DNA of 64,000 nt, from contig JAJZWV010000012.1 in the NCBI GenBank assembly GCA_021846505.1, forward strand, positions 1 through 64,000. Reading direction: 5' to 3'. The translations under genes and the position numbers were made by a program. Below, piece after piece: positions 23,966 to 50,020 of the stretch (positions are counted from its first letter, which is position 1; every line of letters begins with the position of its first letter). Origin of the DNA: Bacillota bacterium (GTDB lineage Bacteria; Bacillota; Sulfobacillia; Sulfobacillales; JAIMBI01). The notes below the pieces were generated by a model that was not told the origin of the DNA, searched no databases, and saw only the letters and a program-made list of their open reading frames with translations.

Positions 23966-24433
23966 CTCGGATCTCACCCGGGAGGCGGGATGGTCCACGC
24001 ACTGAACGTTCTGAGTATTTGCGGCGGCGAGACACGGCCGAGCTGGCCAAGTGGCGCTGCAGGGCCATTTTCCGAGGCTTGGGGGATGGCGGGCGGACTC
24101 AATCTGGCGCGCGGGGGGCATCAAGGCGGCTTCCTTGCTTGTCAGGGCCCAAGGCGAAGGGGTAATGTGGCTCTCAGGTGAAGGTGGCGCAAGCGTTGGC
24201 GATGACGTGCAACCGCCGCCAGGTGGCGGCGCCGGCATCAGGCCCCTGGATGAAAAGGGATGGCCTGACAGGTCGCAACCCCACGGCGCAGAGCGCGTGG
24301 GGCATTCCTTGTGCCGCTGGCCGGATGATGGACACACCGGCGCCGGGCGGCCTTATGGCTCTGGCCGCCGCCTGGTCGAGGCGGCGTGGAATCGGGCGCA
24401 CCTGCATGGCAGGGCTGGCAAGGAGGCATCGGA
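23966..24433. other. Intergenic region upstream of the 2-oxoacid dehydrogenase cluster
   Basis: I find no supported gene in these 468 bases. Open frames exist on both strands but lack recognisable domains and ribosome binding sites. The promoter of the dehydrogenase cluster should be here; no consensus promoter was identified by eye. Confidence 0.4.
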
Positions 24434-25834
24434 GTGGCCGAGTCATTTGATTTAGTGGTGTTGGGTGGCGGCCTGGGCGGCTATGTCGCCGCGATTCGGG
24501 CGGCGCAGCTGGGCATGAAAACCGCACTGGTGGAGCGCGACAAAGTGGGGGGCACGTGCCTGCACCGGGGCTGCATCCCCACCAAGGCGCTGCTTCACAC
24601 CGCCGACGTGGTGCACCAGCTGCACGAGGTGGGCGAGCTGGGCATCAAGCTGAAGAAAGAGGCCTTTTCCCTGGACTACCCGGCGGCTGTGCAGCGCAAG
24701 GACAAGATTGTGACGCAGCTGTGGCGCGGGGTTGAATTTCTCATGAAGAAAAACCACATCACGGTCTACAAGGGAGCCGGCCGCCTGGCCAGCGCCACCC
24801 AGGTGGTGGTGGACGGCGAAAAGGGGCAAGACACGCTGTCCGCCAAGGACGTGCTGGTGGCGGTGGGTTCAGAGCCGCGGCCGCTCCCGAACCTCCCCTT
24901 TGACGGCGAGCGGGTGCTGTCATCCGACCATGTGCTGGAGCGCACCAAGGTGCCGGCATCGGTGCTTATTGTCGGCGGGGGCGCCATTGGCGTCGAGTTT
25001 GCCTCGATGTACCGCGACTTCGGCAGCGAGGTCACGCTGGTGGAGATGCTGCCGCACATCCTGCCCCAAGATGACGCCGAGGTGGCGGCCGAGCTGACGA
25101 AGCTCTTGACCCGCCGGGGTGTCAAGATTTATGCGGGCGCGGCCGTGGACGGCATCCAGGTGGGAGCCCAGGGCGTGACCGCCCAGGTGAAGCCCAAGGA
25201 AGGGGAGGCCCAAGCGGTGGAAGCCGAGGTGCTGCTGGTGGCCATCGGCCGCCAGGCGGTGACGGCCGGGATCGGGCTGGAGACACTGGGGGTCAAGATG
25301 AACCGCGGCTTCATCGAGGTGGACGAGGCTTATCGAACCAGCGTGCCCCACGTGCTGGCCGCGGGCGACTGCATCGGCGGCTACCTGCTCGCGCACGTGG
25401 CGGCCCATGAAGGCATGATTGCCGTGGAGGCGCTCTCTGGAAACCACCCAGAAGGCTTGAACCCCAACCGCGTGCCGCGCGTCACGTACTGCCGGCCGGA
25501 AGTGGCCAGTGTGGGCGCTACCCAGGAGGAAGCCGAGGCGGCGGGCCACGCAGTCAAGACCGGCACGTTTCCCTTCAAGGCCAATGGCAAGGCGCTCATC
25601 CTCCAGGAGGGCGACGGCTTCGTGAAGCTCGTGGCTGATGCGAAGACCGACGCGCTGCTGGGGGCTCATATTATTGGCCCGCACGCGTCGGATCTCATCA
25701 ACGAGGTGGCGCTGGCCAAATTCCTGGAAGGCACCGCGTGGGAAATGGCGGAGAGCGTACACGCGCACCCCACGGTGTCGGAGACGCTGCACGAAGCGGC
25801 GCTGGTGGTGCAGGGACACGGCATCCACGTCTAG
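24434..25834 (+). CDS. lpdA: Dihydrolipoamide dehydrogenase (E3)
   Basis: This 466-residue FAD enzyme reoxidises dihydrolipoyl groups with NAD+. The FAD motif LVVLGGGLGGYVAAIRAAQL begins at residue 7. The redox-active disulfide is in GGTCLHRGCIPTKALLH near residue 42, the NAD-binding motif VLIVGGGAIGVEFASMYRDF is near residue 175, and the C-terminal active-site His-Glu pair is in VHAHPTVSETLHEAAL. The GTG at 24434 has AGGAGG seven bases upstream; an upstream reading from 24386 is not supported. It is the first gene of the E3-E1-alpha-E1-alpha-E1-beta-E2 cluster and may also reduce the lipoyl domain of the agmatinase fusion at 45.4 kb. Confidence 0.95.
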   Translation: MAESFDLVVLGGGLGGYVAAIRAAQLGMKTALVERDKVGGTCLHRGCIPTKALLHTADVVHQLHEVGELGIKLKKEAFSLDYPAAVQRKDKIVTQLWRGVEFLMKKNHITVYKGAGRLASATQVVVDGEKGQDTLSAKDVLVAVGSEPRPLPNLPFDGERVLSSDHVLERTKVPASVLIVGGGAIGVEFASMYRDFGSEVTLVEMLPHILPQDDAEVAAELTKLLTRRGVKIYAGAAVDGIQVGAQGVTAQVKPKEGEAQAVEAEVLLVAIGRQAVTAGIGLETLGVKMNRGFIEVDEAYRTSVPHVLAAGDCIGGYLLAHVAAHEGMIAVEALSGNHPEGLNPNRVPRVTYCRPEVASVGATQEEAEAAGHAVKTGTFPFKANGKALILQEGDGFVKLVADAKTDALLGAHIIGPHASDLINEVALAKFLEGTAWEMAESVHAHPTVSETLHEAALVVQGHGIHV

Positions 25835-25860
25835 ACACGTCGAGAAAGGACGGCGACAGC

Positions 25861-26868
25861 ATGGCCAAGGCCAAAGCCCCTGCCCAGCGCAAGCCGGCTC
25901 CCGGGCTCGGCACCGAGCGTCTCCGCGAGATGTACTACCACATGGTGATGGCCCGGGCGCTGGATGAGCGATGCTGGGTGCTGAATCGTGGGGGCCAGGC
26001 GCCGTTTGTGATTTCGGGCCAGGGCCACGAAGCGGCCCAGGTGGGCACCGCCATGGCCTTTGACTCGGCCAAAGACTTTCTCTGTCCCTACTACCGCGAC
26101 TTGGGCGTAGTGCTGGCGTTTGGGGTTACCCCGCGCGAGGTGATGTGCGGGCTCCTCGCCCGCGCCAACGACCCAAGCTCCGGAGGCCGCCAGATGCCGT
26201 CCCACTGGGGCCATGCCGGCCGGCGGGTTATCACCGGGTCGTCGCCGGTGGCCACGCAGATTTTGCATGCCGCGGGCGTGGCGCTGGCCGCGCAGGTCCG
26301 TGGGGAGGATACGGTGGCGGCGGCGTTTTTCGGCGAAGGATCGTCGAACCAGGGCGACTTTCACGAGGGACTCAATTTTGCCAGCGTCCACCGGCTGCCG
26401 GTCATCTTCATCTGCGAAAACAACGGCTATGCGATTTCGGTGCCGCTGTCCAAGCAGATGTCCATCTCCAGCGTGGCCGCCCGCGCAGCGGGCTACGGCA
26501 TTCCGGGGGTGGAAGTGGATGGGCTGGACCCCCTGGCGGTCTACCAGGCGACCGAAGAGGCGGTGGCCCGCGCCCGCCGCGGCGAGGGGCCCTCGCTCCT
26601 GGATCTCAAAGTGGTGCGGCTGACGTCGCACTCGAGCGACGACGACCAGCGGTCGTACCGACCAGCGGAGGATTTGGCCGCCGAGCGGCAGCGGGATCCC
26701 CTCCCGCGCTTCCGGTCTTGGATGGAGTCCCAGGGGGTATGGGATGCTCAGCAGGAACAGGACTTAGGCGCCCGCATCCAGCGCGAAGTGGATGACGCCA
26801 CGGAATTTGCGCTGGCGTCGCCGGTGCCGGACGCCAGCACCTTGCTCGATCACGTGTACGCGCCCTAG
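25861..26868 (+). CDS. 2-oxoacid dehydrogenase E1 alpha subunit, copy 1
   Basis: This 335-residue thiamine-diphosphate enzyme subunit belongs to the pyruvate/branched-chain/acetoin dehydrogenase E1-alpha family. The ThDP-Mg motif begins GEGSSNQGDFHEGLNFASV near residue 158 and ends at ENN. Conserved blocks YYRDLGVVLAFG, SSGGRQMPSHWG and the phosphorylation-loop counterpart LTSHSSDDDQRSYR are present. The last resembles branched-chain and generic E1-alpha rather than mitochondrial PDH. AAAGGA precedes the ATG. A close paralogue follows 23 bp downstream. The 2-oxoacid used is uncertain. Confidence 0.85.
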   Translation: MAKAKAPAQRKPAPGLGTERLREMYYHMVMARALDERCWVLNRGGQAPFVISGQGHEAAQVGTAMAFDSAKDFLCPYYRDLGVVLAFGVTPREVMCGLLARANDPSSGGRQMPSHWGHAGRRVITGSSPVATQILHAAGVALAAQVRGEDTVAAAFFGEGSSNQGDFHEGLNFASVHRLPVIFICENNGYAISVPLSKQMSISSVAARAAGYGIPGVEVDGLDPLAVYQATEEAVARARRGEGPSLLDLKVVRLTSHSSDDDQRSYRPAEDLAAERQRDPLPRFRSWMESQGVWDAQQEQDLGARIQREVDDATEFALASPVPDASTLLDHVYAP

Positions 26869-26891
26869 CGGCGCTGGAAGGAGCAACGATC

Positions 26892-27875
26892 GTGCCAGAA
26901 GGACTCACGGCCGAGATTTTGACTGATATGTACTATCACATGGTGCTGGCGCGTGTGCTGGACGACCGCATGTGGGTGATGAACCGATTGGGGCGAGCGC
27001 CGGTGGTGTACTCGTCCAATGGCCACGAGGCCACGCAGGTGGCCAGCGCCTTTGCACTGGACCGCGGCCGCGACTGGGTAGTGCCCTACTACCGAGACTT
27101 GGCCCTAGTGCTGGCCATGGGCATGAGCCCCCGGGATGTGTTTCTCCACCTGATGGGCCGGGCTAGCGATCCCAACTCCGGCGGGCGCCAGATGCCGGCT
27201 CACTGGGGCTCGGTCGACTTAAAAATCCTCACCACCGGCTCGGTGGTGACCACCCAGATGATGCACGCGGCGGGCATTGCCCTGGCGGCCAAGCTGAAGC
27301 ATGAGCCCACCGTGGCGATGGCCACGTTCGGGGAAGGGTCCACGTCGCAAGGGGACTTTCACGAGGCGCTGAACTTTGCCTCGGTCATGAAAGTGCCGGC
27401 TATCTTTCTCAACGAAAACAACGGCTACGCGATTTCGGTGCCGTCCCGAAAGCAGATGGCGGTCCCCGATGTGGCGGCGCGAGCCCAGGGCTACGGCATG
27501 CCGGGCGTGGTGGTGGACGGCAACGACCCCATCAAAGTGTACGAGGCCGTGAAGGCCGCGGCCGACAGGGCGCGCGCGGGCGAGGGCCCGACGCTGATTG
27601 AGGCGAAAACCTATCGGTTTGTGCCGCACTCCAGCGACGACGACGACCGGGCTTACCGGTCCCGCGAAGAAGTCGCGGAAGCCAAGAAGCATGACCCGCT
27701 GGCGGTCTTTGAGCGGCAGCTGCGTGAGCAGGGGCTCTTAGATGACGCCCAGCACAAGCAGATTCACGATCGGGCCAAGGCGGCGGTGGATGACGCCACC
27801 GAGTTTGCGGATGCCGCCGCGGACCCGGATCCCAGCACGCTGGGTCGGCACGTGTATCACGAAGCGGCAGTCTAG
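26892..27875 (+). CDS. 2-oxoacid dehydrogenase E1 alpha subunit, copy 2
   Basis: This 327-residue protein is similar to the preceding gene throughout: YYHMVLARVLDDRMWVMNRL against YYHMVMARALDERCWVLNRG, and NSGGRQMPAHWGS against SSGGRQMPSHWGH. The ThDP motif begins GEGSTSQGDFHEALNFASV. All cofactor residues appear intact in both copies, so this is a tandem paralogue, not an obvious pseudogene. Divergence is considerable, roughly half the residues by eye, so the duplication is old. It starts at a GTG with AAGGAG upstream. The copies may pair with the single E1-beta to give different substrate ranges. Confidence 0.85.
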   Translation: MPEGLTAEILTDMYYHMVLARVLDDRMWVMNRLGRAPVVYSSNGHEATQVASAFALDRGRDWVVPYYRDLALVLAMGMSPRDVFLHLMGRASDPNSGGRQMPAHWGSVDLKILTTGSVVTTQMMHAAGIALAAKLKHEPTVAMATFGEGSTSQGDFHEALNFASVMKVPAIFLNENNGYAISVPSRKQMAVPDVAARAQGYGMPGVVVDGNDPIKVYEAVKAAADRARAGEGPTLIEAKTYRFVPHSSDDDDRAYRSREEVAEAKKHDPLAVFERQLREQGLLDDAQHKQIHDRAKAAVDDATEFADAAADPDPSTLGRHVYHEAAV

Positions 27876-27902
27876 TCGGGATCTGAAGCGGGAGGCAAAG
27901 CA

Positions 27903-28883
27903 GTGGCGATGACGTATTTGGAGGCGGTCCGCGAAACCTTGCGGCAGGAGATGCGGCGAGATTCCCGCATTATCATCTACGGCGAGGACGTGGGCGTGCG
28001 GGGCGGCGTGTTTCGCGCCACCGAAGGCTTGCAGGCAGAGTTTGGCGAGGATCGCGTGATGGACTCGCCGCTGGCCGAGTCGGCCATTGTGGGCACCGCC
28101 ATTGGCGCGGCCATCAATGGGCTAAGGCCGGTGCCCGAGATCCAGTTTGCCGATTTTATCTTCCCGGCGGTCAACCAGATCATTCAGGAGGCCGCGCGCA
28201 TCCGGTATCGATCCAACGGCACCTTTGGCGTGCCGCTGGTGATTCGCGCGCCCTACGGCGGAGGAATTCATGGGGCGCTGTACCACTCGCAGAGCATTGA
28301 GGCATTCTTTGCCCATGTGCCCGGGCTGAAAGTGGTGATGCCCGCCACCCCGTACGACGTGAAGGGCCTCTTGGCGTCATCGATTGAGGACGAGGACCCC
28401 GTATTGTTTTTGGAACATAAGGGGGCATACCGGTCCATTCGCGGCGAGGTGCCGGACGAGCGCTACTTGATTCCGCTGGGGGAGGCGGACGTGAAGCGCA
28501 CCGGCACCGATGTGTCCATCATCTCGTGGGGCATGACCGTGAACTCTTCGCTAAAGGCAGCGGAGGCGCTGGCGAAGCAAAACATCTCCGTCGAGGTGCT
28601 GGACCTCCGCACCATTCGACCGCTGGATACCGAGGCCATCCTCGCGACCGCCAAAAAGACGGGCAAGGTGCTGGTGGTGCACGAAGACAACCTCACCGGC
28701 GGCTTTGGCGGTGAGGTGAGCGCCCTGATTGCAGAGCATGCGCTGTTTGACCTGGATGCGCCGATCCGCCGCCTGGCGGGGCCGGACGTCCCGGCGATGC
28801 CGTACGCGCCCAGCCTGGAGCACGCCTTTTTGGTGACGCCCGAGAAAATCGAGGCGGCAGCCAAAGAGCTGGCCTTGTTTTAG
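27903..28883 (+). CDS. 2-oxoacid dehydrogenase E1 beta subunit
   Basis: This 326-residue protein is the transketolase-type beta chain that pairs with E1-alpha in a heterotetramer. It has the ThDP-activating segment IIIYGEDVGVRGGVFRATEG, the loop PLAESAIVGTAIGAAINGLR with the activating Glu, the central APYGGGIHGALYHSQSIEAF, and the C-terminal LVVHEDNLTGGFGGEV. A GGGAGG site precedes the GTG at 27903; an ATG two codons on is the alternative. It is the only E1-beta in the window and must serve both E1-alpha copies if both are used. Confidence 0.92.
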   Translation: MAMTYLEAVRETLRQEMRRDSRIIIYGEDVGVRGGVFRATEGLQAEFGEDRVMDSPLAESAIVGTAIGAAINGLRPVPEIQFADFIFPAVNQIIQEAARIRYRSNGTFGVPLVIRAPYGGGIHGALYHSQSIEAFFAHVPGLKVVMPATPYDVKGLLASSIEDEDPVLFLEHKGAYRSIRGEVPDERYLIPLGEADVKRTGTDVSIISWGMTVNSSLKAAEALAKQNISVEVLDLRTIRPLDTEAILATAKKTGKVLVVHEDNLTGGFGGEVSALIAEHALFDLDAPIRRLAGPDVPAMPYAPSLEHAFLVTPEKIEAAAKELALF

Positions 28884-28964: not shown

Positions 28965-30251
28965 ATGGCGGAGCAAGTGTTGATGCCCCAGCTGGGCGAA
29001 AGCGTCACCGAGGGGACCATCGGCCAATGGCTGAAGCACCCCGGCGACCACGTGGACAAGTATGAATCGCTCTTAGAGGTGCTGACCGACAAGGTCAATG
29101 CTGAGGTGCCGGCGCCGGTCGCCGGCACGGTTGTGAAGCTGCTGGTGGAAGAGGGCGCCACCGTGCCGATTGGCACGCCCATCTGCGAGCTGGACACCGG
29201 GTCCGGCGAGAGTGCCGCCCCAGCACCCGCCGCAGAGCCTTCCGCGGCGGAAGCGGCTCCGGCAGCGCCGCCCTCCGCAGCCAGCGCGGCGGTGTCCGCT
29301 GCGGCCAAGGCCGCCCCGGCCCGCGAGGGCACCCGCTACTCGCCGGCCGTGCGCCGGCTGGCGGCCGAGCACCAAGTCGACCCCGCGGCCGTCACGGGCA
29401 CCGGCGCGGGCGGGCGCGTGACGCGCGGCGACGTTCTGAAGTTTGCGGAGGCGGGGGCCAAGGCGCCCGCAGCCGCTCCGGCGCGGGGCGCCGAGGCGTC
29501 CGCTCCTGCTCCCGCGGCGATGGCGGCGGGTGCGCCGGCCCATATCGAGGACGGCGACACGCTGGAGCCGGTGAGCCAGGTGCGCCGCGTGATTGCCGAG
29601 CGCATGGTGCGCTCCAAGCAGACCGTGCCGCATGCCTGGCTGATGGTGGAGGCCGACGTGACCGGGCTGGTGGCGCTCCGGGCGCGGCACAAAGACGTGT
29701 TCCGCGAGCGCCACGGCGTGCCGCTCACCTATCTGCCCTTCATGATGCGGGCTGTGGTGCGCGCCTTGCAGGCGGTCCCTATCATGAACGCCCAGTGGAG
29801 CGGAGACCAAATTGTCATGAAGCGCCGGGTGAACGTCGGCATCGCGGCGGCTACGGCGCGCGGCTTGGTGGTGCCGGTGGTGCATGACGCGGATGAGAAA
29901 AACGTGGTGGGGCTGGCTAAGGCGACCCAGGACCTGACCCAGCGCGCCCGGAGCGGCCGCCTGAAGCTGGAGGACCTCTCCGGCGGCACCTTCACGGTGG
30001 ACAACACCGGGGCGGTGGGCACGGTGCTGACCTATCCCATCATCAATGCCCCGGAAGTGGGCATCGTCACGATGGAGTCCATCGTCAAGCGGCCCCGCGT
30101 CATGCCGGGCGACGCGATTGCGGTGCGGTCGATGGTGAACCTGTGCCTGAGCTTTGACCACCGCGTGGTGGACGGTGCCGAGGCGGCGCTGTTTGTGAAC
30201 ACCGTGAAGACCGAGCTGGAGGCGCTGACACGGGAGAGCCCCATCGACTAG
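28965..30251 (+). CDS. Dihydrolipoamide acyltransferase (E2)
   Basis: This 428-residue protein has three domains. The lipoyl domain occupies residues 1-78, with lipoyl-lysine K43 in LEVLTDKVNAEVPAP. An Ala/Pro-rich linker leads to a peripheral-subunit-binding domain (YSPAVRRLAAEHQVDPAAV, then GTGAGGRVTRGDVL), and a second linker leads to the catalytic acyltransferase domain from about residue 195. The active site is LSFDHRVVDGAEAALF near residue 393, with the catalytic His and Asp. Sequence style is closest to branched-chain/generic E2. GAGGAGG precedes the ATG. lipA and lipB follow directly and would attach lipoate to K43. Confidence 0.92.
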   Translation: MAEQVLMPQLGESVTEGTIGQWLKHPGDHVDKYESLLEVLTDKVNAEVPAPVAGTVVKLLVEEGATVPIGTPICELDTGSGESAAPAPAAEPSAAEAAPAAPPSAASAAVSAAAKAAPAREGTRYSPAVRRLAAEHQVDPAAVTGTGAGGRVTRGDVLKFAEAGAKAPAAAPARGAEASAPAPAAMAAGAPAHIEDGDTLEPVSQVRRVIAERMVRSKQTVPHAWLMVEADVTGLVALRARHKDVFRERHGVPLTYLPFMMRAVVRALQAVPIMNAQWSGDQIVMKRRVNVGIAAATARGLVVPVVHDADEKNVVGLAKATQDLTQRARSGRLKLEDLSGGTFTVDNTGAVGTVLTYPIINAPEVGIVTMESIVKRPRVMPGDAIAVRSMVNLCLSFDHRVVDGAEAALFVNTVKTELEALTRESPID

Positions 30252-30305: not shown

Positions 30306-31310
30306 ATGGAGAGTCAGGGGAATCCAGCGGCGGTGCCGCTCGTCGAGGCTGCCAGTGTGGAGCCGTCAGAAGGGCCGGGGGGCACCCCGGCGGCCCTGCC
30401 GACGCATCCTTGGCACATCGACCGGCAGGCACAGCCCGCGCAGGCCAGGTTTCTGCCGCCGTGGCTCAAGGTTAAGCTGTCCAACGGCCCGCATTTTCTC
30501 GAGCTCAAAGAGCTCATGCGGACGGCGGAGCTGCACACGGTGTGCGAAGAGGCGCGCTGCCCCAATGTGTACGAGTGCTGGGAGCAGCGCACGGCCACCT
30601 TTCTCATTTTGGGCGACACCTGCACCCGCAGCTGCGGGTTTTGCGCCATCAAGACGGGCAAGCCCACCTGGTTTGACCAGGGCGAGCCCCAGCGCGTGGC
30701 TGACTCGGTCGTGCACATGGGCTTGAAGCACGTCGTCATTACGTCGGTAACGCGCGACGACTTAAGCGACGGCGGCGCCAGCATCTTTGCCCGCTGCGTC
30801 GAGGAGATTCGCCGCCGGCTGCCCACGTGCAATGTCGAGCTGCTCATCCCGGACCTGCTGGGCAACTGGGAGGCGCTGGCCCACATCGTAGCGGCGCGCC
30901 CCGACATCCTGAATCACAACACCGAATCGGTGCCGCGCATGTACAGCTGGGTGCGGCCCAAAGCAAACTTTCAGCGCAGCATGGAGCTTTTAGCCCGGGT
31001 CAAGCAGCAGGATCCGGCTATGGTGACCAAGTCCGGCATCATGGTGGGCCTCGGCGAAACCCACGAGGAAGTGCTGGACGTATTCCGCGCCATGAGGGAT
31101 CATCAGGTGGATGTTCTAACCGTGGGCCAATACATGCGGCCGGATCAGAAGCACCTGCCGGTCGAAAGATACTACACTCCAGAGGAATTTGCGGTGTTTG
31201 AGCAGGAGGCGCTGGCGATGGGATTCCGGCGTGTCGAGTCGGGGCCGCTGGTGCGGAGCTCGTATCACGCAGCAAGCCAAGTGCCCGAGCGCTTGGCGGC
31301 GGCGCGGTAG
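30306..31310 (+). CDS. lipA: Lipoyl synthase
   Basis: This 334-residue radical-SAM enzyme inserts two sulfur atoms into protein-bound octanoyl groups. The auxiliary cluster motif is CEEARCPNVYECW near residue 80, the radical-SAM motif is CTRSCGFCAIKTG near residue 107, and the C-terminal serine ligand motif RSSYHA is near residue 318. The N-terminus carries an unusually long, Pro/Ala/Glu-rich extension of about 40 residues. The ATG has a perfect AAAGGAGGTG site. Placement directly after E2 and before lipB makes a lipoylation unit for the dehydrogenase and, by inference, for the lipoyl-agmatinase. Confidence 0.95.
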   Translation: MESQGNPAAVPLVEAASVEPSEGPGGTPAALPTHPWHIDRQAQPAQARFLPPWLKVKLSNGPHFLELKELMRTAELHTVCEEARCPNVYECWEQRTATFLILGDTCTRSCGFCAIKTGKPTWFDQGEPQRVADSVVHMGLKHVVITSVTRDDLSDGGASIFARCVEEIRRRLPTCNVELLIPDLLGNWEALAHIVAARPDILNHNTESVPRMYSWVRPKANFQRSMELLARVKQQDPAMVTKSGIMVGLGETHEEVLDVFRAMRDHQVDVLTVGQYMRPDQKHLPVERYYTPEEFAVFEQEALAMGFRRVESGPLVRSSYHAASQVPERLAAAR

Positions 31311-31311
31311 C

Positions 31312-32043
31312 GTGGGCGCTCGCGAAGCTCGTCGGCCGGCCCGGGTCATTGACCTGGGCCGGATGGAGTATGGGGCGGCGCTCCGCTGGCAGCAGCAGGT
31401 GCATGAGGCGGTGCGCGAAGGGGCGTGGCCCGACACGCTGCTGCTGGTGGAGCACGACCCCGTGTTTACGGTGGGGCGCCACGCGCGCGGCTCTCACGCG
31501 AACGTGCTGTGGTCTGATGCCGAGCGCGAGCGCCAAGGGGTCGCCCTCTTTGATGTCGACCGCGGCGGAGATGCCACGTATCACGGGCCGGGGCAGCAGG
31601 TGGGCTATCCCATTTTGCATCTGGACCGGCACGGGCACGATCTCCTGGTATACCTGCGAAACTTGGAGCAGGCGTTTATCAACTTGCTGGCCAGCGAGGG
31701 TGTGCCCGCCCGCCGCATCCCACCCCACACCGGCGTGTGGGTTCAGGAGGACAAGGTGGTAGCGATAGGGGTCAAAGCGTCGCAGCGGGTGACGTCGCAT
31801 GGCTTTGCCTTCAACGTGGACCCCAATCTTTCGCACTTTCACGGCATCATCCCGTGTGGCATTCAGGACAAGGGCGTCACCTCGCTGGCACGCCTGACGG
31901 GGGGGCGCCCGACACTCGCCTCGGTGCGCCCGGCGGTGCTCGAGCATCTGGGCAGCGCGCTGGGGCTTCGATGGGAGTCAGTCGATCGAGCGGTGGCCGA
32001 GGCGAGCCTCGCGGCTCTCACGCTGGCGGGCACGGCCCCGTGA
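31312..32043 (+). CDS. lipB: Octanoyl-ACP:protein octanoyltransferase
   Basis: This 243-residue enzyme moves octanoate from acyl carrier protein to lipoyl domains. The conserved blocks are LLVEHDPVFTVGRHA, RGGDATYHGPGQQVGYPILH, the catalytic-lysine segment VVAIGVKASQRVTSHGFAFN and the catalytic-cysteine segment FHGIIPCGIQDKGVTSL. Residues for the Lys/Cys dyad are present. It starts at a GTG one base after the lipA stop (31312), and its TGA overlaps the GTG of the next small gene. Weak ribosome binding suggests coupling to lipA. Confidence 0.93.
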   Translation: MGAREARRPARVIDLGRMEYGAALRWQQQVHEAVREGAWPDTLLLVEHDPVFTVGRHARGSHANVLWSDAERERQGVALFDVDRGGDATYHGPGQQVGYPILHLDRHGHDLLVYLRNLEQAFINLLASEGVPARRIPPHTGVWVQEDKVVAIGVKASQRVTSHGFAFNVDPNLSHFHGIIPCGIQDKGVTSLARLTGGRPTLASVRPAVLEHLGSALGLRWESVDRAVAEASLAALTLAGTAP

Positions 32044-34477: not shown

Positions 34478-34637
34478 GGTGACTCCTCCTAAGCTAAGGG
34501 TATTAGAGTAAGGTCCTCGGAGCACAGTCGGCGATGGAGTCTTGGGAGGCGGGGGCACGTGCGGCGGCGCGCCCCGGAGTCACAAGTTCGCCCTCGAGAA
34601 GACGGCTCTTCGGAGCTCGCCCAGCGCGCCGCGCGTT

Positions 34638-34643
34638 ATAATG
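34638..34643 (+). promoter_or_regulatory. Perfect TATAAT -10 element before the di-iron protein gene
   Basis: TATAAT at 34638-34643 lies 51 bp before the ATG at 34695. No TTGACA-like -35 is seen at the right spacing, so the promoter assignment is tentative. Confidence 0.4.
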
Positions 34644-34694
34644 GCTCTATGTCTGGCGCTCTTCTCATCAGGGGCGCCCGAAGGGGGAATCGGG

Positions 34695-35519
34695 ATGGCG
34701 GACGAGCAAGAGCGGGACGCGCGCCTGCTGGAGCGCATTCAGCGCGGGGAATTGGTGGAAGAGGCCGACGAAATGACGGCCGAGTATCGGGACAATCTCA
34801 TTCACCTCATGCTGATGGAGGCGGACTCGGAGATTGCCGGGGCGTTTGGCTACGTGCCGTGGATCATGAAGGCGCCGACGCCGGCCGAGATGCTGGCCGT
34901 GGCCAGCATCACCCGGGACGAAGTGCGGCACGGCCGGGTGGTGTACAAGTTGCTGGAGAACCTCGGCGTGGACGTGAGCGAGCGGGTCAAGCAGTTTGAC
35001 TTCACGCTGCGCGTGGAGGAAAAGGACTTTTTGGGCCAAGCCCGCGCCGGGCAGGATGAGCGCGTGAACATCTTCTACTACCCGATTGACCGGTGGTCCG
35101 ATTTTGTGCTGTTCAACGTCCTGATGGACCGGGGCGCCGGCCACCAGCTGGAAGACGTGCTCCAGTGCAGCTACGGCCCCTGGAAGCGGGTGATGCAGGG
35201 CATTATGAAGGAAGAAAGCATGCACATCGCGCACGGAGACACGTGGCTGCGCCGGCTGGGCCGCGACCCCGCCACCCACGATGAGCTGCAGGAAGGCTTG
35301 GAGCGCTGGTGGCCGCGCATCATGAACGTCTTTGGGCGGCCGAATACGCGGCGCAACGCGATTTATCAGAAGTGGGGCCTTAAGGTGCGCGACAACGACG
35401 CCGTGCGCCAGGCCTTTGTGGACGACGTCAGCCAGGTGATTGCGGAGTCCAATCTCACCATGCCGTCGTGGACCCCTGACTGGAACGTGGTGCCCGAGGA
35501 AGGCCAGGCGGCCGGCTGA
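34695..35519 (+). CDS. PaaA-like ferritin-fold di-iron oxygenase
   Basis: This 274-residue protein resembles PaaA, the catalytic subunit of phenylacetyl-CoA epoxidase. The four-helix di-iron ligands are visible as MEADSEIAGAFGY near residue 38, ITRDEVRHGRVVYKLLE near residue 74 (E-x2-H), and IMKEESMHIAHGDTWLRRLG near residue 175 (second E-x2-H). Between them lie the dimer and partner contacts (NVLMDRGAGHQLEDVLQCSY). Other paa genes (paaB-E, ligase) are absent here, so the substrate is probably not phenylacetyl-CoA. The ATG at 34695 follows a GGGGG site. The next gene starts on its last base (TGATG), indicating a two-gene unit with a DUF1858 protein. Confidence 0.75.
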   Translation: MADEQERDARLLERIQRGELVEEADEMTAEYRDNLIHLMLMEADSEIAGAFGYVPWIMKAPTPAEMLAVASITRDEVRHGRVVYKLLENLGVDVSERVKQFDFTLRVEEKDFLGQARAGQDERVNIFYYPIDRWSDFVLFNVLMDRGAGHQLEDVLQCSYGPWKRVMQGIMKEESMHIAHGDTWLRRLGRDPATHDELQEGLERWWPRIMNVFGRPNTRRNAIYQKWGLKVRDNDAVRQAFVDDVSQVIAESNLTMPSWTPDWNVVPEEGQAAG

Positions 35520-36616: not shown

Positions 36617-37222
36617 ATGCAGGATTCGTGGTACGGCGCGGCCGATGTCGCGTACATCCGACAAACATTTGTCACGCTGGAGACAGCGGCCGACCGCGGC
36701 GGTTTGACCCGCCAGCAGGCGGTGGGCGCGGTTGCGTTAGGCTACTTGCCCAAGCCTTCGTATCGTGTGGCGGGCGAAGACTGGGTGCCCAACGACTACC
36801 TGGCGCTGTGGCGCGCGGCCGATGAGCAGGGAGAGCGCATTGGCGGCCTTTTCCGCGAGCGACTCGCCGCCGCGCACCAAAGCGCCTACGGGCGGCCCAT
36901 GCCGGCGGCGGAGGGTGAGCGGGCCTGGCGGGACTACCTCTCGGGCGACTACGGGGTGTGTCTCTGGGTGGTGAGCCCAGAATCCATTGTGCGCAAGGGC
37001 TGGCTCATCGAGCACATTCAGCACGAGGTGCGCACCCGGTGGGCGGGCCCAGTCCCTCAGCGAGCCGAGGCCCAGGAGCGCTCCGAGGTATTGGCGGCCC
37101 TGGTGCGCGAGCTGGATGCGCTGGAGCGTCCCTTCGCGGCTGGCGACCGGCTGCGATTTGGCGGCCCGTCCTCCCGTGATATCCATGTCACAGGGGTGCG
37201 CGCCCTCCTGAACCTAGCATGA
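36617..37222 (+). CDS. DUF6058-like protein
   Basis: This 201-residue protein has the pattern I associate with DUF6058: an N-terminal helix-turn-helix-like region (YIRQTFVTLETAADRGGL, then VALGYLPKPSYRVAGEDWVP), then WRDYLSGDYGVCLWVVSPES and IVRKGWLIEHI, and a C-terminal LERPFAAGDRLRFGGPSSRD. The function of the family is unknown. It has no signal peptide or membrane segment. GGGAGGGG lies upstream of the ATG. It is divergent from the broken ArsR gene, which may once have regulated it. Confidence 0.65.
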   Translation: MQDSWYGAADVAYIRQTFVTLETAADRGGLTRQQAVGAVALGYLPKPSYRVAGEDWVPNDYLALWRAADEQGERIGGLFRERLAAAHQSAYGRPMPAAEGERAWRDYLSGDYGVCLWVVSPESIVRKGWLIEHIQHEVRTRWAGPVPQRAEAQERSEVLAALVRELDALERPFAAGDRLRFGGPSSRDIHVTGVRALLNLA

Positions 37223-43995: not shown

Positions 43996-44060
43996 TTGTC
44001 GGGTGTGTCGGCGGTGGTCGCCCACACAGTTTTTGGAACAAGGATTTGGGAGGCCACAGC

Positions 44061-44522
44061 GTGCTGGAGACGCCCCGAAAATTTACCCTGCTGGCCGGGA
44101 CGGCGGAGGGGCCGACGCGCTTGAATGCGTTTGACAACGCACTCTTGGCTGCCGGCATCGGCAACTTGAACTTGGTGCGGGTGAGCTCCATCCTGCCGCC
44201 CGGGGCGATTGAGGTGCCCAGGCTGGCCATTCCCGAGGGTGCGCTGACCCCTACCGCGTACGGCACCATTACGTCCGAAGAGCCGGGGGTGGCGATTGCG
44301 GCGGCGGTGGCCGTGGGCATTGGCGCGGACGGCCGCTATGGCATCATCATGGAGTACTCGGGCCACGGGACCTCGGAAGACGCGGAGTCCATGGTGCGAA
44401 CCATGGTGGCCGAAGCGTTTGCCACCCGCCAGCGCGAGCTGGACCGCGTCCTGGCTCGGGCCGTCGGGCACACGGTCAGCCGCATCGGATGCGCGTTTGC
44501 CGCTGTGGCGCTGTGGTACTGA
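44061..44522 (+). CDS. Pyruvoyl-dependent arginine decarboxylase
   Basis: This 153-residue proenzyme is of the PvlArgDC family, which converts arginine to agmatine with a pyruvoyl cofactor made by self-cleavage. The cleavage site is VRVSSILPPG at residues 40-49, between the two serines (about 42 and 43). The C-terminal part includes GIIMEYSGHGTSEDAESMV, with the Glu needed for catalysis. The GTG at 44061 has GGGAGG seven bases upstream. The aminopropyltransferase gene starts one base after its stop. It feeds agmatine into the two enzymes that follow. Confidence 0.92.
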   Translation: MLETPRKFTLLAGTAEGPTRLNAFDNALLAAGIGNLNLVRVSSILPPGAIEVPRLAIPEGALTPTAYGTITSEEPGVAIAAAVAVGIGADGRYGIIMEYSGHGTSEDAESMVRTMVAEAFATRQRELDRVLARAVGHTVSRIGCAFAAVALWY

Positions 44523-44523
44523 C

Positions 44524-45375
44524 ATGGCAGCCGACATTTGGTTTACCGAGCGCCAAACCTCCGACGTCACCTTAGGCCTCCGCGTTCGCGAGGTGCTGTG
44601 GCAGGAAGAGACGCCCTACCAGCACCTGATGGTGGCCGAGACGGCGGCGTATGGCCGGCTCCTGACCCTGGATGGGGCCGTGCAAACCACGGAGCGCGAT
44701 GAATTTTTCTACCACGAGATGATCGCCCACGTGCCGCTGACGGTCCACCCGCGCCCGCGGCGGGTGGCGGTGGTGGGGGGCGGCGACGGCGGTGTCATCC
44801 GCGAAATCCTCCGTCACCCCGAGGTGGGTGTGGCCCACTTGGTGGAGATTGATGGGCGGGTGATGGAGGCGGGCCGGCGCTTCTTTCCGCAGCTCTCGGC
44901 GGAGCTGGACAACCCCCGCGCGGAGATTCACCTGGTGGACGGCATCCAGTGGATGCGCGAGCAGGGGCTGCAGGACGCCAAGCTGGACGTCGTGATTGTG
45001 GACTCGACGGATCCGGTGGGGCCCGCGACGGGTCTATTTGGCGAAGTATTTTATCGGTCGGTGCATGACGCGCTGGGGCCCGACGGGGTGCTGGTGGCCC
45101 AAACCGAGTCGCCTATGTTGCAGCCGCACTTGATTCAGCAGGCGCAGGCAGCCATGCGGGCGGTCTTTCCGCATGTGTATCTGTATTTGGCGCCGGTGCC
45201 CACCTATCCGTCCGGCTGGTGGAGCTTCAGCTTGGCCAGCAAGGGTCCGCGCCCCGAAAATGCCCGGGCGGTCCGCTTGCCCACGCGCTATTGGACGCCG
45301 GCCATCCAACAGGCAGCGTTTGTGCTGCCGCCGTTTCTCGCGCGGCTGCTGAGCCAGGCAGGCGTGGCGGGCTAG
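44524..45375 (+). CDS. speE: Spermidine synthase-family aminopropyltransferase
   Basis: This 283-residue enzyme transfers aminopropyl from decarboxylated SAM to a diamine. Conserved blocks are LLTLDGAVQTTERDEFFYHE near residue 47, VAVVGGGDGGVIREILRH near residue 82, the catalytic DSTDPVGPATGLF near residue 160, and PTYPSGWWSFSLAS near residue 230. The acceptor may be putrescine or, given the agmatine-producing and ureohydrolase neighbours, agmatine as in the Thermus pathway. S-adenosylmethionine decarboxylase is not in the window. Confidence 0.92.
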   Translation: MAADIWFTERQTSDVTLGLRVREVLWQEETPYQHLMVAETAAYGRLLTLDGAVQTTERDEFFYHEMIAHVPLTVHPRPRRVAVVGGGDGGVIREILRHPEVGVAHLVEIDGRVMEAGRRFFPQLSAELDNPRAEIHLVDGIQWMREQGLQDAKLDVVIVDSTDPVGPATGLFGEVFYRSVHDALGPDGVLVAQTESPMLQPHLIQQAQAAMRAVFPHVYLYLAPVPTYPSGWWSFSLASKGPRPENARAVRLPTRYWTPAIQQAAFVLPPFLARLLSQAGVAG

Positions 45376-45395: not shown

Positions 45396-45433
45396 AAAGA
45401 GTCCAAGAGTCCAAACGGCCCAAGGAGGTTTTC
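45396..45433 (+). repeat. AGTCCA repeats in the leader of the lipoyl-agmatinase gene
   Basis: The leader between speE and the fusion gene contains two tandem AGAGTCCAA copies, followed by AAGGAGG. The style is like the AGTCGA repeats before the E2 gene at 28918-28964. Confidence 0.3.
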
Positions 45434-46564
45434 ATGCAGCAGGTGCCGATGCCGCAGCTGGGGGAAACCGTGTCCGAGGCCACGGTGGGGGCTTGGCTGA
45501 AGCAGCCCGGAGAGCACGTGGCGCTTGAGGAGTCCCTGCTGGAGGTGCTGACCGATAAGGTCAATGCCGAGGTGCCGTCCCCGGTGGCCGGCACGGTCGT
45601 GCGCTGGCTGGTCGAGGAGGGGGCAACCGTGCCGGTGGGCACGCCGCTGTGTGACGTGGCCGAGGACCCGCCGCCGCCCGCTTGGAGCCGTCTGGGCCGC
45701 TTCATTGGTGCCACGGATGCTGCGGAGTTGGCGTCGGTCGTCGTGATGGGCCTGCCCATGGATTGGACGGCGTCATTCCAGCCCGGGTCGCGCTTCGGCC
45801 CCAGCCGGATTCGCGAGGCCTCCTATGGCCTGGAAACCTACTCGCCGGTGCTGGACCGTGACCTGGAGGAGCACCGGGTCGGCGATTTGGGGGACCTGGA
45901 GCTGCCCATCGGCAATGTGAGTGCCAGCTTGGATGCGATTCGCGCGGCGGCGTCGGCCGTACTGGCGCGCGGGCAGCGCTGGGTGGCACTGGGCGGGGAG
46001 CACCTGGTGGCGCTGCCCCTGATTGAGGCCGCGCTGGAGCGCTGGCCCGATCTCGTGGTGGTGCACGTAGACGCCCACACCGATCTGCGGGAGGCGTATC
46101 TTGGGCAGCCGCTGTCCCACGCCACCGTGCTGCGCCGGGTGGCCGAGCGCTGCCAGGCCGGCTCGGTGCACCAATTTGGCATTCGGTCGGGCACTCGCCA
46201 AGAATTTCAGTGGGCCGCGGCACACACGCACCTGCATGTGCGCCAAGTCGCGGAGCCGCTGGCGGCGGCCCTGCCGGAGTTTGGCAGCCGGCCGGTGTAT
46301 CTCACCCTGGATGTGGACGTCATTGACCCCGCCTACCTCCCCGGTACGGGCACCCCCGAGCCCGGCGGCATCACGCCGGACGAGGCGTTTTCAGCCATCC
46401 ATCTGCTGAGCGGGGTGCGGCTGGTGGGAGCGGACGTGGTGGAGACCATGCCGGCCGCGGACATTTCCCAGCGCACGGCGCTGCTGGCCGCCAAGTTGGT
46501 GCGGGAGCTGCTGCTGGTGATGGCGGGGGCTCCCACGGCGCCTTTGGTGCATCAGGGGACGTAA
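45434..46564 (+). CDS. Lipoyl domain-agmatinase fusion protein
   Basis: One uninterrupted 376-residue frame encodes two domains. Residues 1-75 form a lipoyl domain with the modified lysine K42 in LEVLTDKVNAEVPSPVAGTV, and are very similar to the E2 lipoyl domain at 28965. After DPPPPAW, residues 88-376 form a complete agmatinase/arginase-family ureohydrolase: FGPSRIREASYGLETYSP, GGEH (metal His near 190), VVHVDAHTDLRE (D213, H215, D217) and LTLDVDVIDPAYLPGTGTPE (D293, D295), so both Mn sites are intact. AAGGAGG precedes the ATG. It is third in the operon after arginine decarboxylase and aminopropyltransferase. It should release urea from agmatine or aminopropylagmatine. I know of no such lipoyl-ureohydrolase fusion; the role of the lipoyl domain is unknown. 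Confidence 0.88.
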   Translation: MQQVPMPQLGETVSEATVGAWLKQPGEHVALEESLLEVLTDKVNAEVPSPVAGTVVRWLVEEGATVPVGTPLCDVAEDPPPPAWSRLGRFIGATDAAELASVVVMGLPMDWTASFQPGSRFGPSRIREASYGLETYSPVLDRDLEEHRVGDLGDLELPIGNVSASLDAIRAAASAVLARGQRWVALGGEHLVALPLIEAALERWPDLVVVHVDAHTDLREAYLGQPLSHATVLRRVAERCQAGSVHQFGIRSGTRQEFQWAAAHTHLHVRQVAEPLAAALPEFGSRPVYLTLDVDVIDPAYLPGTGTPEPGGITPDEAFSAIHLLSGVRLVGADVVETMPAADISQRTALLAAKLVRELLLVMAGAPTAPLVHQGT

Positions 46565-47154
46565 GGGTCCCGGATGCCGCTGCCCTTGGCACGGCGGCGG
46601 GTGGCCCACTGAGGTTCCACAGGCACGACCGGCACGGAGGCCCCGGGCTGGCGGCTGTCCACCCACACCTGCGCCTCTTCCTTGCTGCGGCACGTGTCGA
46701 CGCCGCGGCGGGCCAGCTGGCGCCGCGTGGACCGGACCAGGGCGTCCTCGTTCGCCAGCACCCGAAGAATCAAGGGATGGGTGGGCTCATAGCCGGTGGC
46801 GGCGATAAATTGCGACGGCAGGACGTTGTGTCGCATGTGGTTGCACGCCCGGCACGCCACCACGCAGTTGTCCACGGCCGCCTGGCCGCCATACGACACG
46901 GGGATGACATGGTCCAGGGTGGATCCCGCCTCACCGCACCAGGCGCAGTGAAGGCCGTCCCTCGCCAGCACGCGGCGAAAAATGCGCCGGTAGGCCAGCG
47001 GGCGGTAGCGCAGGTGCAACACGCCGCCGACGAGGTCGGCGAGCCCGTCCGCCACGTTGGACGCGGCTTTCTCTGGCGAGCACGGTGTGAGGCGCCGCCC
47101 ATCGGGGTCCCTGACCGGTACGGTGGCCCTGGGCTCGGCGGCACCATCGGTCAC
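46552..47154 (-). CDS. HNH endonuclease-family protein
   Basis: The protein has 200 residues. The HNH/zinc site is CAWCGEAGSTLDHVIPVSYG near residue 88, followed by GQAAVDNCVVACRACNHMRH: two CxxC pairs, the catalytic DH, and N-x8-H-type residues. This form is widespread as a chromosomal, non-mobile HNH protein in bacteria. It begins at a GTG overlapping the stop of the upstream glycosyltransferase gene (GTGA) and converges on the agmatinase fusion, overlapping its 3' end by 13 bases. The C-terminal half beyond the HNH is unusual (RSKEEAQVWVDSRQ). Role unknown. Confidence 0.8.
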   Translation of the reverse strand: MTDGAAEPRATVPVRDPDGRRLTPCSPEKAASNVADGLADLVGGVLHLRYRPLAYRRIFRRVLARDGLHCAWCGEAGSTLDHVIPVSYGGQAAVDNCVVACRACNHMRHNVLPSQFIAATGYEPTHPLILRVLANEDALVRSTRRQLARRGVDTCRSKEEAQVWVDSRQPGASVPVVPVEPQWATRRRAKGSGIRDPYVP

Positions 47155-48425
47155 GAGTGGACGGCCTCTCGCGGCCGCGCGTCCCGGCCGCCACGGGGCC
47201 GCCGCCGCTGCCAGACGGCCGCCGCGCCCGCGCCGGTGGCGGCCAGCAGCGTGACATACCGAAAGCCCAGCACCCGAAAGTACAGGGACGGGCTGTACGG
47301 CAAGAACAGGGGGTACACGTGGCGATCGCCATAGCCCAGCACCCCAAAGGAGTTCCACCAGTCCGACAGCCCGCCCAGCGTGATGGCCAGAAAGCTCCAG
47401 AGCGGCCACTCCGCCACCGACGCCATGGTGAGCACCCAAATCATGTACTGGGGCGAAAACACTTTGTTGACCACCATCCAGACCAAAAACGCCAGCGCGG
47501 CGGTTTTGGCCGGGTCGGCGCCTCTGAGCGTAGCCCACAGCGCCAACAGGCTCACGGCGCCCAGGAGCAGGAACGACAGCCCGTCCACCGCCAGCGTGGA
47601 CGCCAGCTTGGACAGCGTGGGCAAAATGAACACCCAGATGTCTCCGCCCACGGGCCGCCCAGCGTTGAAGGTGAAAAACCAGGACCAGTTTTGGAAGTTG
47701 GCCAGCGCCATCGGGAGGTTCAGCCCCACCACCGGAGCGACCGCGGCCCATGTGAACCGCCAGGCCTCGCGGCGTTGGCCGCCGCCCCACAGCGCGGCCG
47801 CCATGAACGGCCACATCGCAATGGGGAAAAATTTCACGGCCACGCCAACGCCCAGCCACACGCCAGCCCAGATCCAGCGCTCGCGGCGGAAGCACCACCA
47901 GGCCGCCACGAGAGTCGTGATACCCAGTAGATCCCAATTCAAAAAGGCATAGGGCAGCCACAGGGGCGACAGAGCCCAGGCCCAGTAGGTTCGGGGCGCT
48001 ATGCGCCGCAGCATAAAGAACGTAGCGACGGCGCACGCCGCCAGCACCGCCATCGTGCCTAAAAAGTACGCCAGCGGCCCGGGCAGCCATGACATCACGT
48101 ACATGAACCAGCCCATGAGGACGGGGTACTCGATGCGGTTTGCAATATACGGCAGCAGGTGCAGATACAGCTCATGGGTGCGGTACAGCCAAATGACATC
48201 GGAGTAGGCCATGCGGGGCATGCTCCACACCGCGTAGCTTGCCGAAAGGCGGTGAGCGTGAAAACCTTGGCGCCAGAGCTGCGGCGGGATCATGCGGAAT
48301 CCTGCCCAAATGAGCCAGCCCGACAGCCCCGCCAGCGACAGCCATGCCAGCCCATCCATCGGCTTCGGCCGGCGCTGCGCCGGCGGGGAGTCGGACCGGG
48401 ACGGCAACTGGTCGGACCTCGTCAT
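47151..48425 (-). CDS. GT-C fold glycosyltransferase (GT87-like), polytopic membrane protein
   Basis: This 424-residue membrane protein has about ten hydrophobic segments. Features fitting polyprenyl-phosphate-mannose-dependent GT87/DUF2029 enzymes are the early acidic loop after the first helix (MAYSDVIWLYRTHELYLHLL, then NRIEYPVLMGWFMY), WALSPLWLPYAFLNWDLLGI and GVAVKFFPIAMWPF. The catalytic Asp cannot be fixed with certainty. Such enzymes add sugars to lipids or cell-wall glycans outside the membrane. The ATG at 48425 has GAGGGG at suitable distance. Confidence 0.75.
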   Translation of the reverse strand: MTRSDQLPSRSDSPPAQRRPKPMDGLAWLSLAGLSGWLIWAGFRMIPPQLWRQGFHAHRLSASYAVWSMPRMAYSDVIWLYRTHELYLHLLPYIANRIEYPVLMGWFMYVMSWLPGPLAYFLGTMAVLAACAVATFFMLRRIAPRTYWAWALSPLWLPYAFLNWDLLGITTLVAAWWCFRRERWIWAGVWLGVGVAVKFFPIAMWPFMAAALWGGGQRREAWRFTWAAVAPVVGLNLPMALANFQNWSWFFTFNAGRPVGGDIWVFILPTLSKLASTLAVDGLSFLLLGAVSLLALWATLRGADPAKTAALAFLVWMVVNKVFSPQYMIWVLTMASVAEWPLWSFLAITLGGLSDWWNSFGVLGYGDRHVYPLFLPYSPSLYFRVLGFRYVTLLAATGAGAAAVWQRRRPRGGRDARPREAVHS

Positions 48426-48485
48426 CCACACACCCCTCGGCGCTGGCGCTTCCGGATCACGGCGCCAATCTTTCTCCGTAGTGTA

Positions 48486-49979
48486 TCAGACGCCGGCCTC
48501 AGCTGGCGGAGCCAGCTCCGCCCGGTGGGGCAGAGGGAAAAACAGCGCGCGGGCATTGTCGGCTGCGATGGCGTGCACCTCCTCGGCCGTGAGGCCTCGG
48601 GCGGCGCCCCAAGCTTGGAAGCGCGCCCACTCCGGCGCGAAGGCGCCAGGCACCCCTCCGGAGCCAAACAGCAGGCGGTGGCTGCCCACGGTGCGCCGCG
48701 CCTCCTCCCAAAATGACTCCGGGGCCTGGGACAGCTCCAGCCACACATTGGCGCGACAGGTCGCCAACGTCAGCGCTTCGGCCAAAAACGGCTCGCGGAC
48801 ACCGGATGACACCAGCACCACGGGCACGTCCGGGTGAAGGATCAAGCTGGCGTCCCAATCCTCTGGGTGTGAAAGATACAGCGGGGCGGGCCCCGGCCCG
48901 ATCCGAACCGCGAGGGGGCGGCGATACCGCGCGAGGAGGCCGACGACGGCGCGGAAGGTGGGGTCATCGGCACGCCGGCCGGCCACCGCGGGCCATGCGA
49001 AGGCGCCGGCAGCCCCTTCTGCCAAGAGCGCCTCCAGCGCCCGCGGATGGTCCGGGTGCGCGGGCGCCAGGGCGGCCAGGCGCGGGCTGTCCTCCGCCAG
49101 GCTCAGTAGGGTGCGGCCCGCGGCTAGCGGATCTGGGGCGGCGAGCGCCGCCCAATCCAGCAGCACCCGGCGCTCGGCCAGCGGCCGCCGCAGATCGTCG
49201 GACCCGAGCGCGACGTCTCCCAGGGCGGTGGCGTGCGCAGGCGCCCACGAGCAGACGTCCAGCACCCCAAGCTCTACGGGCGCGGAGTCGGCGCCGCTGG
49301 CCAGCACCACCGGCTCCCCCGATCCGGAGGCGGAAAGCGGCCGCCCGCGGTGAAATCCCTGTGCAGCGCCCACGTGGAAGGCGCCGCCGAATCGGCCCAG
49401 CAGCGGGACCACCACCACGACCGCGCTGCTGTCGAGGCTCCGCGCGAGGGCCAAGTCCTCCACGGCTCGATGCTCGGCCGCCGTTTTGGAGGCGGTGGCC
49501 ATCACCACTAGCGCGGGCCCGGTTCGCCGGCACTCTGCCCAACGGGCCGGCGCGAGCGCATCGGGCCCCAGGAGCAGCACGACTCGGCCCCAGCGGGTGG
49601 GGATGGCTTCAATGCCCTCGCCAGCCTCAAACCACGGCCGCTCGGGCGGGTCCAGGTCGCACTTGGCCTGGCTCCCCAGCACCGCCCCGTCTTGGTCCAG
49701 CACCAGCGCCCGCTGCTGCTTGGCGCTCGTGGCCGGGTCCAGCACGCGCAGCGTGCCGGTGACCACTCCCACGCCGTGGCGCCGCGCCGCGTCGGCCAGC
49801 ATCCGGAGCGCGCGGCTGGGCATGGGCTCGGGGGGGTTCAATCCCAAAAACCACTCGGGAAACACGATGAGGTCCGCGCCCAGCTCGCGCGCCCGCTGCA
49901 TGTGGCTGGCGGCGCGCTGAAGCGCCGCCGTGGCATCGCGGTCGTACGGGGATTGGCTGATGGCGACGCGGGGGGTCAA
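48486..49979 (-). CDS. Nitrilase-like domain fused to amidohydrolase-like domain, catalytic Cys lost
   Basis: This 497-residue two-domain protein begins with a carbon-nitrogen hydrolase fold at residues 1 to about 255: ELGADLIVFPEWFLGLNPPE (Glu kept) and LGSQAKCDLDPPERPWFEAG (Lys kept). The strand that should hold the nucleophile reads VVLLLGPDALAPARWAE, where ICYD is expected, so the catalytic Cys is missing. From about residue 265 a second domain resembles the metal-dependent amidohydrolase (TIM-barrel) family: VLLDWAALAAPDPLAAGRTL, VPVVLVSSGVREPFLAEALT, LLFGSGGVPGAFAPEW and VHAIAADNARALF, though metal ligands are poorly conserved. The start is taken as TTG at 49979 behind GGAGGTGA. The function is unknown. 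Confidence 0.6.
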   Translation of the reverse strand: MTPRVAISQSPYDRDATAALQRAASHMQRARELGADLIVFPEWFLGLNPPEPMPSRALRMLADAARRHGVGVVTGTLRVLDPATSAKQQRALVLDQDGAVLGSQAKCDLDPPERPWFEAGEGIEAIPTRWGRVVLLLGPDALAPARWAECRRTGPALVVMATASKTAAEHRAVEDLALARSLDSSAVVVVVPLLGRFGGAFHVGAAQGFHRGRPLSASGSGEPVVLASGADSAPVELGVLDVCSWAPAHATALGDVALGSDDLRRPLAERRVLLDWAALAAPDPLAAGRTLLSLAEDSPRLAALAPAHPDHPRALEALLAEGAAGAFAWPAVAGRRADDPTFRAVVGLLARYRRPLAVRIGPGPAPLYLSHPEDWDASLILHPDVPVVLVSSGVREPFLAEALTLATCRANVWLELSQAPESFWEEARRTVGSHRLLFGSGGVPGAFAPEWARFQAWGAARGLTAEEVHAIAADNARALFFPLPHRAELAPPAEAGV

Positions 49980-50020
49980 TCCGCTCACCTCCCACTTTGC
50001 CACATATTGCATCTAATGAG

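Follow-up and report, generated by a model that had tools for sequence, protein, structure and literature searches.

Introduction

The lipoyl group works as a swinging arm in the five lipoylated complexes that have been characterised, and PMC6067878 adds LbpA of the Hdr-like sulfur oxidation system, a GcvH-like protein with a single lipoyl domain and mostly two conserved cysteines, as a precedent for a lipoyl protein outside these complexes. Lipoyl domains that precede an enzyme in the same chain are found in the acetoin dehydrogenase subunit NF011457 (lipoyl domain plus alpha/beta hydrolase) and in the E1-beta with an N-terminal lipoyl domain NF008854, and both models match the lipoyl part of the protein described here. 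Both of these are components of 2-oxoacid or acetoin dehydrogenase complexes, and agmatinase is not known to have a link to a complex of either kind. The stand-alone members of the agmatinase SpeB family (TIGR01230, PF00491) that we examined carry no lipoyl domain. The original prediction knew of no described lipoyl-ureohydrolase, and none was found in the open-licence literature, as judged from titles and abstract openings.

The protein analysed here is encoded in a window of 64,000 nucleotides (the whole stretch of DNA studied) and joins an E2-type lipoyl domain, unlike the GcvH-like domain of LbpA, to an agmatinase. With SpeB it shares the whole catalytic domain, the Mn ligands, an operon with speE and a structure near 3lhl. 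With the PDH E2 lipoyl domain, the probable direct ancestor of its N-terminal domain, it shares the K42 hairpin, whereas the E3-binding domain (PSBD) and the acyltransferase core of E2 were not found in the fusion, in which Pfam gives PF00364 and PF00491 alone.

The Fusion Gene and Its Product

The frame at 45434..46564 had been read as a lipoyl domain joined to a ureohydrolase, and Pfam finds both domains in this single open reading frame: Biotin_lipoyl at residues 3-74 (E 2.4e-18; 66.2 bits against a cut-off of 22.1) and Arginase at residues 101-360 (E 3.7e-79). In NCBIfam the TIGR01230 agmatinase model scores 291.5 bits (cut-off 174.3), and the best scores on the N-terminal part are those of E2 models. 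The features of the gene are as follows.

45422..45428, forward strand: AAGGAGG, Shine-Dalgarno-like, ahead of the fusion start (read directly)
45434..46564, forward strand: lipoyl-agmatinase fusion gene, 376 amino acids, ATG start (Pfam and NCBIfam)
45440..45655, forward strand: lipoyl domain PF00364, residues 3-74, probably from the PDH E2 of the genus
45557..45559, forward strand: codon of K42, the predicted lipoyl-lysine
45668..45733, forward strand: linker, residues 79-100, fast evolving
45734..46513, forward strand: agmatinase (ureohydrolase) domain, residues 101-360

K42 lies in the context LTDKVNAE in the window's copy, and K42 together with TDKVNAE is found in all four fusions identified here (see below). 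An internal start yielding a lipoyl-free agmatinase was rejected because no start codon common to the four fusions was seen between codons 76 and 101.

The agmatinase part has the complete Mn ligand set that was predicted: H190, D213, H215, D217, D293 and D295, which we take to be the metal ligands, are all present, and in an alignment of 28 sequences five of them are invariant and H190 is conserved to at least 90%. In a comparison with 18 stand-alone agmatinases (16 of them from the order), 95 columns are invariant in 17 or more of these enzymes; the fusions differ in one such column, A216T, and T at this column is also found in one stand-alone enzyme (L029). A cysteine, C240, is present in all four fusions and in none of the 18 stand-alone enzymes. 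In an AlphaFold model of the full protein the agmatinase part is mostly confident and residues 1-90 are poor; a model of the lipoyl domain alone, built on 3 sequences only, has a mean pLDDT of 51.3 and is partly helical. Foldseek ranks 3lhl first (TM 0.92 on the target), the structure of a putative C. difficile agmatinase. The same genome also encodes a second, distant ureohydrolase (G000:C98:20871-21719), with 41% identity to the agmatinase part of the fusion and with similar matches in relatives.

Distribution of the Fusion

The same domain order was sought in relatives, and full-length matches were found in four of 101 genomes (the window's own and 100 relatives), these being all four genomes examined of one genus. 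The lipoyl-agmatinase fusion is thus not unique to this assembly; it is a genuine protein architecture and not an assembly artefact, because three further genomes of the genus carry this frame too, on contigs of their own (82-84% identity). No match spanning both domains is among those listed for the other 97 genomes of this search, and three of the 101 genomes gave no match at all. In the order, which we take to be Sulfobacillales, 41 of 42 genomes give an agmatinase match (E 1.2e-98 or better), and the fusion accounts for 4 of the 41. No lipoyl domain lies upstream of speB in the 18 of the 37 unfused genomes that were read upstream, the others being judged by match range only. Two further candidates (G020 and G010), with matches reaching residues 25 and 57, were rejected as their frames are without the DK motif of the lipoyl domain.

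At wider range, 40 of 154 genomes of the class pass E 1e-99, four of them fused, and 267 of 398 genomes of the phylum pass 1e-60, the only fusion among the matches listed being the window's own. Searches in two other phyla used cut-offs too strict to pick up a fusion whose agmatinase is distant: in that of a Herbaspirillum record (L068) 27 of 398 genomes pass 1e-56 and no match starts before residue 84, and in that of an Acidimicrobiales record (L031) one of 396 genomes passes, with a match that starts no earlier than residue 84. At most four candidates per genome were scored in the three phylum searches. Among 80 of 101 confirmed loci of a genome contig scan, a single one, L027 ('Bacillota bacterium isolate TL1-2.bin2'), is fused. 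On plasmids, 488 records matched, and none of the best 60 of these starts before residue 26; the 18 records matching at least 80% of the query all start at residue 26 or later, and Pfam gave Arginase only in the four of them that were scanned.

Gene Neighbourhood

The fusion is the third gene of a polyamine operon, behind genes for pyruvoyl-dependent arginine decarboxylase (PvlArgDC) and spermidine synthase, and the PDH genes lie upstream on the same strand:

24386..28883, forward strand: E3, two E1-alpha and E1-beta genes of the PDH operon (NCBIfam)
28965..30251, forward strand: PDH E2 (lipoyl, E3_binding and acyltransferase domains), probable source of the duplicated lipoyl domain
30306..31310, forward strand: lipA, lipoyl synthase
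31189..32043, forward strand: lipB, octanoyltransferase; the listed frame start overlaps lipA and the true start is probably later
44046..44522, forward strand: pyruvoyl-dependent arginine decarboxylase, which makes agmatine (Pfam, NCBIfam)
44524..45375, forward strand: speE, spermidine synthase (Pfam, NCBIfam)

AdoMet decarboxylase is encoded elsewhere in the same genome, and the route from arginine through agmatine and putrescine to spermidine is therefore complete on paper, with the fusion enzyme predicted to make putrescine from agmatine.

The gene order in G001 and G003, two of the other genomes with the fusion, is that of the window (E3, two E1-alpha, E1-beta, E2, lipA, lipB, PvlArgDC, speE, fusion). 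In the unfused relatives that were read a lone speB stands behind speE, and its start lies at the end of speE or just behind it in G004, G005 and G006. In five unfused relatives (G004, G006, G030, G011 and G007) the fetched stretch likewise has E2 and PvlArgDC-speE-speB on a single strand. They are separated by lipA-lipB in G030, G011 and G007, whereas no lipA-lipB was found at this place in the fetched stretches of G004 and G006. E3 falls inside the fetched stretch in G030 only, and in G005 E2 and speB are on different contigs. The colocalisation with the PDH operon was rejected as a sign of coupling, since these two sets of genes already lay close together when the fusion arose, and their proximity is therefore no argument for a functional link. 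It had been pointed out that lipA, lipB and E3 genes lie in the same window; they do, and this carries little weight given that unfused relatives show the same PDH-polyamine neighbourhood. The pre-existing proximity may have made the duplication easy.

Several other genes of the neighbourhood were recorded. The PDH operon has tandem E1-alpha genes (25738-26868 and 26892-27875) and one E1-beta; a tandem pair is also present in G001, G003 and G006 and, within the stretches fetched, in G004 and G011, and a single E1-alpha in G005 and G030. Between the PDH and polyamine genes lie a PaaA/PaaC-like protein of the phenylacetyl-CoA epoxidase family (34542-35519), which scores under the PaaA cut-off, and a DUF6058 protein (36617-37222); the PaaA/PaaC-like gene has the same place in G001, G003, G004 and G006 and is near the polyamine genes in G005. 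Overlapping frames for an HNH endonuclease and a GT87 glycosyltransferase (46552-48090 and 47151-48431, reverse strand) are convergent with the fusion gene. A 508-aa frame (48486-50012, reverse strand) has a carbon-nitrogen hydrolase domain at residues 15-167 and a long C-terminal part, in which no Pfam family exceeds its cut-off and the end of which resembles a metal-dependent amidohydrolase by eye.

Origin of the Lipoyl Domain

Because the trees group the added domain with the PDH E2 of the genus itself, the lipoyl segment probably arose by duplication from that E2 gene, about 15 kb away. The likeness to the E2 lipoyl domain at 28965 that had been noticed amounts to 69% identity over the aligned stretch, and the mean identity of the four fusions to the window's PDH E2 is 0.692 over 78 residues. 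Across the E2s of the genus, identity to the lipoyl part of the fusions is 0.667-0.692 in protein and 0.676-0.709 in DNA, and the next closest of 27 other E2s of the order reaches 0.660 and 0.672. The E2 set covers 31 of 42 genomes of the order (30 loci and G004); G006 and G030 failed the motif filter and nine genomes have no locus. In a protein tree of 35 lipoyl domains and 78 columns, the four fusions and the four E2s of the genus form one group against the 27 other E2s (support 98/94; 92/80 in the DNA tree). A first tree gave this group 84/94; it included C88 and C70, two far E2 domains from the same genome, which were left out of the later trees for their long branches. Since the domain groups with E2, within a comparison set made up of E2 domains, a GcvH/LbpA-type origin was set aside.

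In the DNA tree the window's copy stands apart from the other three in both the fusion half and the E2 half, as expected from one duplication before the species split, and the copying from PDH E2 most likely predates the split of the four species. In the protein tree, unlike the DNA tree, the fusions stand beside the window's E2 alone (90/57), an arrangement that would call for a later transfer, unless it is noise in the 78 columns. An alternative tree, in which the E2s of the genus join the E2 of G005 apart from the fusions, was not rejected (AU p 0.407). A long branch leads to the fusions (changes per column: 0.93 and 1.02 for protein, 0.26 for DNA), which we read as a probable burst followed by constraint.

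A leader common to the E2 and fusion genes was also considered as a scar of the duplication and was dropped, as the match is mostly the ribosome site. The purine-rich leader of the fusion contains AAGGAGG in the window, GGGGGAGGAGG in G001 and G002, and only GGGGGG in G003; compared with shuffles, the E2/fusion leader match has p 0.002 for the window's pair and p 0.087, 0.073 and 0.68 for the other three.

Selection on the Lipoyl Domain

In all six species pairs dN/dS is lower in the lipoyl part of the fusions (0.028-0.079) than in the ureohydrolase part (0.087-0.133). These are Nei-Gojobori estimates, which are rough where dS is near 1, and dS between the fusion copies is about 0.2-1.2. Orthologous lipoyl domains of E2 in the genus have dN 0.006-0.035 and dS 0.11-0.96, a ratio of about 0.02-0.06. 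The linker of the window's copy differs from the other three by dN 0.58-0.63 (41-50% identity). These values indicate that the lipoyl part of the fusion is under strong purifying selection, close to that on genuine E2 lipoyl domains, and that the linker drifts freely.

There are 20 fixed differences between the fusions and the E2s of the genus, and none of them falls in hairpin residues 33-56 (hypergeometric 1.6e-4, a value without correction for E2 conservation). All 15 hairpin positions that are near-invariant among the 31 E2s are kept in the fusions. Among near-invariant E2 positions, 0 of 15 in the hairpin are changed vs 6 of 29 elsewhere (P = 0.08, Fisher's exact test); retention specific to the hairpin is therefore suggestive, not proven. 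In 11 columns the lipoyl part of the fusions has residues absent from all 31 E2s. Near the beta1-beta2 loop the changes T14S, G16A and I18V, at positions invariant or nearly so in the 31 E2s, are found in all four fusions, and so is a change of Y32 to D or E.

Possible Roles of the Lipoyl Arm

The E2-like constraint, together with a hairpin free of fixed change, makes it likely that K42 is lipoylated. The window encodes both LipA and LipB, and K42 would be octanoylated by LipB and then turned into the lipoyl form by LipA, as in E2. The agmatinase oligomer would then display several lipoyl arms, which may be transiently engaged by E1 and/or E3 of 2-oxoacid dehydrogenase complexes, and the acylation or dithiol/disulfide state of the arm could link putrescine synthesis to pyruvate or NADH status. 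We tentatively place this reading, a lipoylated arm on agmatinase with transient E1/E3 engagement and a pyruvate/NADH readout, first among the options, with a probability of roughly 0.45. According to the review PMC6270654, E1 reads the lipoyl domain mainly over its lysine-bearing half, including the beta1-beta2 loop and the lysine turn; given the changes at residues 14, 16, 18 and 32, recognition by E1 may be altered. The same review describes E3 as having no lipoyl-domain specificity, with little or no interaction between E3 and the lipoyl domain in NMR of the E. coli proteins; E3 should then at least not exclude a lipoylated arm. Of the roles proposed earlier, which were tethering, redox control and an assembly signal, stable tethering in the manner of E2 is unlikely because no PSBD was found in the fusion, and for this reason transient engagement with an acyl or redox readout is preferred over it. 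The bolder claim, that this would be a new class of lipoyl-dependent enzyme and the first lipoylated ureohydrolase, with PDH acylating or reducing the arm of agmatinase and polyamine synthesis reading pyruvate or NADH, seems to us rather doubtful.

A serious rival, which we hold to be unlikely all the same, is that the duplication supplied a strong ribosome site together with a domain that folds well, kept for the sake of better expression, folding or oligomer packing of agmatinase, any lipoylation being incidental. The fusion does have its own purine-rich leader, whereas in three unfused relatives speB begins right where speE ends or close behind; the fusion is also restricted to one lineage and has diverged from E2 outside the hairpin. 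Yet the fold would suffice for a passive tag, which has no need of the DK turn, and this turn is unaltered in all four fusions; the lipoyl domain is nearly as constrained as in genuine E2. It is less probable again that the lipoyl dithiol exchanges with the agmatinase part, for example with C240, to give redox-dependent activity without the PDH complex. The restriction of C240 to the fusions and the E3 gene in the window would suit such a self-contained device, but C240 is one column among many, and the AlphaFold model places it after a helix and before a strand, a position which we take to lie away from the metal site in the agmatinase fold.

It is very unlikely that the domain serves as a relay or reservoir that accepts octanoyl or lipoyl groups and passes them to E2s: the lysine hairpin is intact and lipA and lipB are nearby, but a LipB-type transferase, which modifies E2 directly, is present, and the lipA-lipB pair also occurs in three relatives that lack the fusion. 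The model for such a relay is GcvH of Bacillus, described in PMC6067878 as the acceptor from which octanoyl or lipoyl groups reach the E2s. An assembly or binning artefact is scarcely credible; each genome of the genus is broken into many contigs (119-310), but the fusion is present in four of them in copies that differ by a dS of about 0.2-1.2, and the same junction, with speE and PvlArgDC upstream, is found in the window, G001 and G003.

Implications

On a hydrolase that does no carrier chemistry, a conserved and selected lipoyl domain would put the cofactor to a new use, and the near-intact arm suggests an undescribed use of lipoic acid. The locus further offers a clear example of a domain captured recently: the probable donor gene, the recipient gene and unfused relatives can all be seen, as can the long stem and the constraint that followed it. 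If the preferred reading is true, central carbon metabolism could be tied to polyamine synthesis in this genus.
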